From Ignavibacteria bacterium (lineage in GTDB: Bacteria > Bacteroidota > Ignavibacteria > Kapaibacteriales > UBA4661): a DNA stretch of 64,000 nt. This document shows, in pieces, positions 104 to 3,289 of the stretch. The translations under genes and the position numbers were made by a program. The DNA is taken from positions 1 through 64,000 of the forward strand of contig JACVZY010000071.1 of the NCBI GenBank assembly GCA_014654705.1. The letters are read 5' to 3'. The first letter of the stretch is position 1; every line of letters begins with the position of its first letter. The notes under the pieces are model-generated. The model saw only the letters and a list, made by a program, of their open reading frames with translations, ran no database searches and had not been told where the DNA came from.

Positions 104-1216
104 ATGAATCGAAAAAAAATAGTGGTCATTGACGACGACGAAACGACGCTGCGCACTATCTCGCGCATCTTGGAGACATACGACTACGTTACCTTTGGAG
201 CAGACAATGGGCGCGAAGGCGTAGAACTTGTTACCCGCACTCAGCCGGATATTGTCATTTGCGACGTGATGATGCCCGGCATGAATGGCTACGAGGTGTT
301 ATTAGAATTGCGCAATCATGCCGGCACGGCGACCATTCCCGTTCTCTTGCTCTCCGCCCGCCGCGATCCCGCAGAAATCCGGCACGGTATGAAGCTCGGC
401 GCAGACGATTATCTTACTAAGCCCTTTTCGACCGAAGACCTCTTGCGCTGCATAGAGGTACGGATTCAGCAGCGCGAGAAGATTGTCCGCCAGTCCTCGC
501 AGCAGTTGGAGCAACTCCGGCGCAGTATTGCGATGCGCCTCCCACACGAATTTCGGACTCCACTCAGTTCCATTATCGTTTTTGGAGAATTACTTGCCGG
601 CGATTACGACAGTCTCTCCCGCGAACAAGCAATGGAGATGATTGCAACGATTGTTTCATCAGGACACCGCTTGAGTGGATTGGTAGAGAATTTTATTTAT
701 CTGGCGCGGTTGGAAATTATGGCGGGGCAGCCTACAACAAAGGAGGAACTGACATCGTTTCCCTTGCCCGGTTGCGATGCCATTATAGCCGAAGCGGCAA
801 AGCATCAGGTCTTGATATATGGCAATTTTCATCTTCTGACGATGACTCTTGCGCCAGTTACACTCTGCATTTCTGATGCATATTTACGAAAAATTATTGC
901 CGAGCTGGTAAGTAATGCCTGTAAATTTTCCATGCCTAAAACTGCTATCACCATCACAGGGGGAATAGAACGGAATTTTTACGTCATTTCGATAACAGAT
1001 GAGGGACGCGGCATGAAGCTGGAGCAAATCTCGAATATCGGTGCCTATATGCAGTTCGACCGCGATCGCCACGAGCAACAGGGGCAAGGCTTGGGGCTGG
1101 AAATAGCCAAACGTATTACTGAGTTGCACGGTGGCGGTCTTGCCATCAAAAGCGCACCCGACGAAGGAACGACCGTGCAAGTATTCCTGCCTCTGCCCGA
1201 ACATCGTGAATTTTAG
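104..1216 (+). CDS. Response regulator fused to histidine kinase (REC-HisKA-HATPase)
   Basis: This is a cytoplasmic two-component hybrid of 370 aa. An N-terminal receiver domain (about 5-120) has the acidic pocket IDDDE, the phospho-acceptor Asp54 in VICDVMMPG and Lys106 in LTKP. A short linker leads to a HisKA segment with His148 in LPHEFRTPLS, then an HATPase domain with N-box ELVSNACKFS, G1 DEGRG and G2 GQGLGLEIAK. There is no transmembrane or sensor domain. With REC placed first, the kinase is probably controlled by phosphotransfer from another kinase. A purine-rich GAGAGAGGG precedes the ATG. No cognate partner is adjacent, so the signal and target are unknown. Confidence 0.9.
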   Translation: MNRKKIVVIDDDETTLRTISRILETYDYVTFGADNGREGVELVTRTQPDIVICDVMMPGMNGYEVLLELRNHAGTATIPVLLLSARRDPAEIRHGMKLGADDYLTKPFSTEDLLRCIEVRIQQREKIVRQSSQQLEQLRRSIAMRLPHEFRTPLSSIIVFGELLAGDYDSLSREQAMEMIATIVSSGHRLSGLVENFIYLARLEIMAGQPTTKEELTSFPLPGCDAIIAEAAKHQVLIYGNFHLLTMTLAPVTLCISDAYLRKIIAELVSNACKFSMPKTAITITGGIERNFYVISITDEGRGMKLEQISNIGAYMQFDRDRHEQQGQGLGLEIAKRITELHGGGLAIKSAPDEGTTVQVFLPLPEHREF

Positions 1217-1444: not shown

Positions 1445-3289
1445 ATGCTCGTCACCACACCTGTTAAAACCTCATTTCTCGAACGCCTTGCCGACCAAAC
1501 ACCTCTTGTAACGGACGGTTCTATTGCAGCCGAACTCACGGCGCGTGGCTTTGGCGACTTCCCACCCTGCATTTACAATAGCAAGCAGTCGGTCCTTATC
1601 GAAGACATTCACCGAGCCTTCGTGGAAGCAGGCGCAGAACTGCTTCAGAGCAATACCGAGCACGCCAACCGCCTAACGCTTGAGCGTTATGGTTTTGCCG
1701 ATAAAGTCTATGAACTAAATCGCACAGGAGTTTGGATAGCCCGCTATGCCGCACTGCATAAAGCATACGTGGCGGGGGTGATGGGTCCGGTGGGGAAATT
1801 TCTCACGCCGCTTGGAGCACTGAACCGTGATGATGTTCGCGCCGCATTTGTGGAGCAGGCGACAGCACTCGTGGATGGCGGTGCGGACGTGCTGATGCTC
1901 AAGTCGTTTATTGACGTGGAAGAATTGGAAATTGCTATTGATGCCGCAAAATTTGTTGCGCCTGATGTACCCATCATCGCTCAAAAAACATTTCCCGAAG
2001 ACGGAGCTGTTTTAGCAACGTCGTACCCTTCGGACATCGCACAAAATCTGGTTAAAAAGGGTGTTGCTGTGATTGGCACAAACGGTACAGTCGGTCCGCA
2101 GCGCATGATGGATATTTTGAAGCATTTTCACGCCGAGGGTACGCCGCTTTGTTCTCAGCCTGATGTCGGCATACCGACGCTCGTCGACGGCAAAGCGATT
2201 TACAACGCCGAACCGCGCTATGTGGCACAGTCGGTGCGACGTTTGGTAGAGGCAGGAGCGCAAATTGTAGGCTGCGAAGGCGGTGGCACGGTGGAGCATA
2301 CCCGCGCCATAGCCGAGGCAATTCAAGGAGCAGTTGTTGGTTCGCGCAAGCCTGAAGTCAAAGTGTCGCATAATAACGAGCCGGAAGTAGCGAATGGCGC
2401 AACAACCAATTTTTTCGACAATCTTGGCAAAAAATTTCTTACGACTGTGGAACTCGACGTGCCGCGCGGCTTGGATTTATCCAGTATTCTGGAAGGCGCT
2501 GCATATTTGAAAACGAATGGCTTGGACGCAGTGAACATATCCGACGGCGCACGAGCACGATTGCGCATGAGTTCGATTGCAATTTCGCAAATCGTCCAGA
2601 CACAAGTAGGAATCGAATGTCTGGCGCACCTCGCCTGCCGTGACCGCAATATGATTGGCTTGCAATCGGAGTTGTTAGGTGCTCATGCGATGGGCATAAA
2701 AAATATCCTTGCCGTTACCGGCGACCCAACACAAATTGGCGATTTTCCCTACGCTACCTCCGTCTATGACGTAGATTCTATCGGACTTATTCGGGCGTTG
2801 GGGCAGATGAACGACGGGCGCGACCTCATGGGAAATCCGATTGGCGGCAAAACGCAATTTTGCATTGCATGTGCGTGCAATCCCGCCGCATACGACCTCG
2901 ACCGCGAAGCACGGCGTTTAGAAGAAAAAGCCGCCCAAGGCGCACACGTGGCTTTCTCGCAGCCTGTTTTCGACGAAGAAACGCTCAATCGCTTTTTGGA
3001 GCGGGCAAAGCACATTAAAATTCACATTATGCTGGGCGTGATTCCGCTCCGCTCCGCTCGCCATGCGGACTTTCTGCACCATGAAGTGCCGGGCATGTAC
3101 ATTCCGGACTGGGTCCGCTCGCGCATTCATGAGGCAAATGCGTCGGGAGGGCTGGAAGCCGCCACGCGCGAGGGTATTTCGCTAACGGTTGATTTTCTGC
3201 GCAAAGCAAAATCAATGATTCAAGGAGTTTATCTTATGCCGCCCTTTAAGAAATATTCTATGGCGGTTGAAATTTTGCAACAGGTGTAA
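1445..3289 (+). CDS. Homocysteine S-methyltransferase-like / methylenetetrahydrofolate reductase fusion
   Basis: A 614-aa fusion with the YitJ layout: an N-terminal homocysteine S-methyltransferase fold (about 10-290) and a C-terminal MTHFR barrel (about 320-614) that would reduce 5,10-methylene-THF to 5-methyl-THF using FAD. The MTHFR half carries AVTGDP and a C-terminal QGVYLMPPF segment. The N-terminal half keeps family landmarks (LLQSNTEHANRL, SQPDVGIP) but not the metal site. The usual GxNCxxGP reads IGTNGTVGP (Gly214), and the usual GGCCGTTPEH reads VGCEGGGTVEH. The three zinc cysteines are therefore absent or displaced, and the methyltransferase activity is doubtful, while MTHFR activity is likely. 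The gene is monocistronic and followed by a strong hairpin. Confidence 0.88.
   Translation: MLVTTPVKTSFLERLADQTPLVTDGSIAAELTARGFGDFPPCIYNSKQSVLIEDIHRAFVEAGAELLQSNTEHANRLTLERYGFADKVYELNRTGVWIARYAALHKAYVAGVMGPVGKFLTPLGALNRDDVRAAFVEQATALVDGGADVLMLKSFIDVEELEIAIDAAKFVAPDVPIIAQKTFPEDGAVLATSYPSDIAQNLVKKGVAVIGTNGTVGPQRMMDILKHFHAEGTPLCSQPDVGIPTLVDGKAIYNAEPRYVAQSVRRLVEAGAQIVGCEGGGTVEHTRAIAEAIQGAVVGSRKPEVKVSHNNEPEVANGATTNFFDNLGKKFLTTVELDVPRGLDLSSILEGAAYLKTNGLDAVNISDGARARLRMSSIAISQIVQTQVGIECLAHLACRDRNMIGLQSELLGAHAMGIKNILAVTGDPTQIGDFPYATSVYDVDSIGLIRALGQMNDGRDLMGNPIGGKTQFCIACACNPAAYDLDREARRLEEKAAQGAHVAFSQPVFDEETLNRFLERAKHIKIHIMLGVIPLRSARHADFLHHEVPGMYIPDWVRSRIHEANASGGLEAATREGISLTVDFLRKAKSMIQGVYLMPPFKKYSMAVEILQQV

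Follow-up and report, generated by a model that had tools for sequence, protein, structure and literature searches.

The gene at positions 1445 to 3289 of the window (the whole stretch of DNA that was analysed, 64,000 nucleotides from an Ignavibacteria bacterium) joins a homocysteine S-methyltransferase (HMT) domain to a methylenetetrahydrofolate reductase (MTHFR). The HMT domain lacks the residues with which its family binds zinc, and this raises the question of what such a domain still does. The 614-aa open reading frame has the YitJ-type architecture, an N-terminal HMT barrel followed by a C-terminal MTHFR barrel:

1445..3289, forward strand: HMT-MTHFR fusion gene, 614 aa, ATG start (open reading frame; match to NF006396/PRK08645)
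1505..2323, forward strand: HMT TIM-barrel domain, aa 21-293, catalytic site gone (PF02574, 1.1e-43, 150 bits; AF2 and Foldseek to MmuM 5dmm, BHMT and MetH)
2429..3277, forward strand: MTHFR TIM-barrel domain, aa 329-611 (PF02219, 2.3e-30; Foldseek TM 0.84 to T. thermophilus MTHFR)

The source genome (5.7 Mb, 99% complete) has Candidatus Kapaibacterium and Ignavibacteria MAGs as its nearest named relatives. A response-regulator/histidine-kinase hybrid protein is encoded immediately upstream on the same strand at 104..1216, approximately 230 bases from the fusion gene, and shows no sign of belonging to it.

The predicted structure was used to judge the fold, which the preliminary description had thought intact. 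The AF2 model of the window protein (mean pLDDT 85, pTM 0.71) bears this out. In Foldseek the N-terminal half matched MmuM (5dmm) with a TM of 0.78 by target length, and BHMT and MetH were also found; the C-terminal half matched the MTHFR 8eac. A sister protein with an intact site (L052) was modelled with a pLDDT of 84 and a pTM of 0.52. At a pTM of 0.71 the placement of the HMT and MTHFR halves in the window protein is no reliable sign of an interface. Tested against PF02574, the N-terminal half matched both fold and profile, and the three zinc cysteines and the glutamate at the position of E. coli MetH E181 were absent.

Reading the sequence again returned the motifs IGTNGTVGP, IVGCEGGGTVEH and MLKSFIDVEE as well as the open reading frame coordinates, all as described before. 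The altered positions are:

1514..1531, forward strand: DGSIAA, aa 24-29, at the ancestral DGAMGT motif (sequence comparison of relatives)
1901..1903, forward strand: K153 at the conserved Glu position (alignment, T. maritima MetH E146 / E. coli MetH E181)
2084..2086, forward strand: G214 at the first zinc Cys position (alignment, T. maritima MetH C207)
2162..2164, forward strand: D240 at the Asn of PNAG (alignment, T. maritima MetH N234)
2273..2281, forward strand: C277-E278-G279 at (G)CC, the second and third zinc Cys (alignment, T. maritima MetH C272, C273)

Aligned to T. maritima MetH, C207 corresponds to G214, C272/C273 to E278/G279, E146 to K153 and N234 to D240. The asparagine at the N234 position of T. 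maritima MetH is presumably an endogenous zinc ligand prior to homocysteine binding. The mapping obtained from E. coli MetH and MmuM agrees with this one; for E. coli MetH the pairs are C247 and G214, C310 and E278, C311 and G279, E181 and K153, N274 and D240, and Y71 and F59. F59 stands at a conserved tyrosine and S26 falls within DGxxGT. It had been proposed that one zinc cysteine remains in a shifted position. The loss of the site stands, but the alignments to MetH and MmuM show that all three ligand cysteines are gone and that C277 is not one of them. It sits at a Gly/Ala position beside the zinc-ligand positions, where relatives mostly carry alanine. The suspected change at the acidic position was recovered as the replacement of the conserved glutamate by K153. 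S26 and D240, a gained and near-invariant acidic residue, go beyond the changes listed earlier. Compared with the MetH homocysteine domain, BHMT and MmuM, the window protein shares the TIM-barrel fold and most motif positions, whereas zinc triad, glutamate and asparagine are replaced. The chemistry of the HMT family is a zinc activation of the homocysteine thiol (PMC4101490). Because none of the three cysteines is present and lysine replaces glutamate, this activation is not expected of the HMT half, and from its residues zinc-dependent methylation of homocysteine by this half is judged very unlikely.

The preliminary description had suggested to look for the same loss in relatives. Orthologs were collected from 396 genomes of the phylum, from genome contigs and from 391 genomes of the class; the fusion was matched in 206 of these 391. 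Residues were counted in 109 distinct proteins of the class, leaving out L097 and L127. The loss of the zinc site is common to all 58 distinct proteins of one Ignavibacteria (Kapaibacteria-like) clade, hereafter the lost clade. All three cysteines and the glutamate are present in 49 others, and two (L076 and L077) show a partial loss. Since the 58 distinct proteins, the window protein included, have the same change, an assembly, sequencing or frameshift error behind the altered motifs is ruled out.

Within the lost clade (n = 58) S26 is found in every protein. Position 153 is K in 51, R in 4, S in 2 and L in 1 (K/R in 55 of 58), position 214 is G in 54 and S in 4, position 240 is D in 57 and E in 1, and position 279 is G in 54 and R in 4. 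Other positions are less uniform: D24, N213 and residue 278 vary, D24 is missing in about a quarter of the clade by weight, and position 277 is alanine in about three quarters. At position 278, D (35 proteins) and E (12) occur beside five other residues. As a candidate, a new acidic metal site at this second zinc Cys position was rejected, because residue 278 (D/E/S/C/A/Y/F) is too variable across the clade. K153 and D240 lie at the C-terminal ends of strands 4 and 7 of the model; judged from these positions and the aligned pocket residues, the two are probably paired as ions at the old zinc/substrate site. The three of 58 members with Ser or Leu at 153 keep Asp240; the aspartate is therefore not retained only to pair with the lysine.

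The history of the site was followed on a tree calculated from the MTHFR half only, with the root placed on a distant, mostly intact subfamily. On this tree the zinc-site state changes 2 times, compared with a mean of 36 after shuffling. The acidic residue at 240 needs one change and the state at 153 three. The branch uniting the whole lost clade had an SH-aLRT of 94 in the smaller tree and is not starred. The direction from CCC to the lost state depends on this mostly intact outgroup and on the presence of CCC in MetH and MmuM. This tree needs two independent losses, one in the Kapaibacteria-like clade and one in a single genus of another family (g11, family f5). The latter comprises L076 and L077, in which two zinc cysteines are lost (triad S, C, L/V), the glutamate is kept and PNAG has become PSAG. 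Possibly the same process is seen here at a less advanced stage. The intact fusions of Ignavibacteria and Kryptonia (L052, L056-L059, L064 and others) belong to the same class, have the same architecture, share 40-48% identity with the window protein in the HMT half and, like it, are as a rule the only MTHFR of their genome. They differ from the window protein in that CCC, the glutamate and DGAMGT are kept, with Ala at 240.

The MTHFR half gives a different picture. Its catalytic residues E336, H395, D427 and Q506 are kept and correspond to E28, H88, D120 and Q183 of E. coli MetF; the first three were present in 35 of 35 representatives and Q506 in 34, with one gap. From these residues and the absence of any other MTHFR, this half would be an NAD(P)H- and FAD-dependent reductase. 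By family search, the fusion is the only MTHFR of the source genome. Likewise, 33 of the 34 other fusion genomes tested contain no second MTHFR, the exception being G228, where the second copy is broken. In this second HMT-MTHFR fusion (L086, G228:C23) the HMT motifs are intact but three stop codons lie in frame; it is apparently a pseudogene or an assembly error.

A search for another MetH or MetE, also suggested earlier, yielded a MetH with intact zinc motifs, and no MetE was found in the source genome by family search. This MetH (943 aa) is the only other protein of the genome with an HMT domain, and its motifs ETIFD, GLNCSLGP and GGCCGTTP are intact (CCC and E). It stops after the B12 domain; a separate gene of the same contig, at a distance of about 60 kb, encodes the AdoMet reactivation domain:

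G000:C118:42042-42980 and 103026-103844 (L087:4201-7032, reverse strand, and L088): split MetH and reactivation-domain gene

Within the order, MetH reading frames are repeatedly about 860-970 aa long in families f1 and f2, compared with about 1210-1245 aa in f3 and others. In all lost-clade genomes tested, except for the MAG G248, another HMT-domain protein was present, as a rule MetH. One genome of the same order (G288) has no fusion but adjacent metH and metF genes (L129:4518-9118). Thus, a plain MetF is able to replace the fusion. In an engineered strain of Bacillus subtilis, E. coli metF was substituted for yitJ (PMC9618320). Together with the gene set of G288, this replacement identifies the MTHFR as the indispensable part of the fusion.

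Is the HMT half then simply decaying? The ratio of HMT to MTHFR divergence is 1.41 in the lost clade versus 0.83 in the intact sister. Since the distant, mostly intact group also reaches 1.45, relaxation cannot be read from this ratio alone. Better evidence comes from comparing single columns with the direct sister: 26 HMT columns, versus 3 in the MTHFR half, are fixed in the intact sister and relaxed in the lost clade. At the same time the HMT half is under purifying selection. Within the lost clade, most pairwise dN/dS values of this half fell in the range 0.02-0.10; one close pair, which is noisy, gave 0.19, and silent sites were saturated in many pairs. In the same clade 47 HMT columns are at least 95% conserved. 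Loops of the catalytic face (1.11 bits) are more conserved than those of the back face (1.99 bits). The domain is thus constrained, and its pocket has been re-specified rather than erased. For all the relaxation of the HMT half, this pocket holds newly fixed residues and does not show simple decay.

In our reading, the fusion is probably the essential, sole MTHFR of the cell, carrying a pseudoenzyme HMT barrel as a structural or regulatory partner, with Lys, Asp and Ser now occupying the old zinc/homocysteine pocket. The fusion would supply 5-methyl-THF to the separate B12-dependent MetH. Zinc and homocysteine activation would have been lost once, in the ancestor of the Kapaibacteria-like clade, and the barrel would have been kept for its part in the folding, oligomerisation or control of the MTHFR half. 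The conserved set of Ser26, Lys153 and Asp240 would then fill the emptied zinc/homocysteine pocket. We infer a role that may be structural or, via the remodelled pocket, regulatory, and the re-fixed residues would fit either a structural or a ligand-binding role.

A further reading takes the remodelled pocket as a sensor that binds a methyl-cycle metabolite (e.g. methionine, AdoMet, AdoHcy or a folate) and exerts allosteric control on the MTHFR. We regard this as possible but doubtful. The new residues are fixed at old substrate positions, and the catalytic face, still among the most conserved parts of the barrel, is compatible with ligand binding too. The variation within the clade at pocket positions such as D24, N213 and 278 speaks against it. 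Control at the RNA level was also considered. A SAM-I riboswitch of B. subtilis yitJ is described in PMC8603990. No Rfam match was obtained in the window, and among 11 sampled relatives only a tRNA was matched. The lack of a known riboswitch at the fusion gene and these relatives would suit control by the protein itself, but the intact sister proteins in the sample are likewise without a riboswitch match. The regulatory domain of eukaryotic MTHFR has a fold unrelated to the HMT barrel and lies at the opposite end of the protein. Eukaryotic MTHFR likewise combines the reductase barrel with an extra non-reductase domain, there C-terminal, AdoMet-binding and regulatory, and the enzyme is inhibited by AdoMet (PMC11183114). 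By analogy, the HMT domain might regulate the bacterial enzyme. Tentatively, it could have been exapted as a metal-free allosteric sensor of the MTHFR around Ser26, Lys153 and Asp240, a bacterial counterpart, with a different fold, of the eukaryotic AdoMet domain.

Improbable, in our judgement, is a new zinc-free chemistry or substrate of the HMT half. Type-II shifts at S26, K153, S154 and D240 of the active site would agree with it, but the clade has no invariant candidate catalytic set: three members carry S or L at 153, about a quarter of the clade by weight lacks D24, and 278 takes seven residues. The rate of the HMT domain is relaxed, and the sequence comparison of the clade gave no supporting evidence for new catalysis. 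Conserved neighbour genes that could hint at a substrate were not found either; the neighbourhood is uninformative, with a downstream glycosyltransferase and epimerase in one subclade only and a LysA-like decarboxylase upstream in some intact sisters.

There is little to recommend the view of the HMT half as a decaying passenger, functionless beyond its attachment to an essential MTHFR. The faster evolution of this half with its 26 relaxed columns would be expected of a passenger, as would the independent loss in genus g11, where MetH is present. However, the 47 conserved columns, the low dN/dS and the new fixation of S26 and D240 argue against it, and the many full-length matches reveal no trend toward a truncated HMT half. 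That the HMT half still methylates homocysteine with a metal held by C277 and acidic residues is scarcely credible: C277, E278 and D240 do lie close to the old site, but 277 is mostly alanine and 278 is not conserved, the glutamate is a lysine, and the genome encodes a MetH whose site is intact.

We return to the reading of an MTHFR with a pseudoenzyme partner, which also bears on the name of the protein. It shares domain order, length and the MTHFR role with YitJ/SamT of B. subtilis, the protein of PRK08645 (NF006396), but lacks the zinc-binding residues and the glutamate of the HMT family. SamT/YitJ is described as an (R,S)-AdoMet homocysteine S-methyltransferase and MTHFR (PMC6302742); an annotation review of 2017 words this activity as presumed (PMC5743806). 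In the NCBIfam equivalog model for bifunctional HMT/MTHFR (NF006396/PRK08645) the window protein reaches 615 bits, above the cut-off of 453, with aa 10-613 aligned to model positions 3-601; automatic annotation would therefore name it bifunctional. This label is very probably wrong. As the architecture is of the YitJ type and the catalytic residues of the HMT half are missing, the protein should be named MTHFR with a pseudo-HMT domain. A literature search, largely outside subscription journals, found no paper on a pseudoenzyme HMT or on a methionine synthase of Kapabacteria.

The conversion to a pseudoenzyme is documented here across a clade and inside a core enzyme of one-carbon metabolism. 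As the sister clade is cleanly intact and the loss occurred a second time independently, the function of the YitJ-type HMT half can be tested by comparison. An equivalog-level automatic name on proteins without the catalytic site introduces false methyltransferase assignments when the metabolism of these bacteria is modelled.
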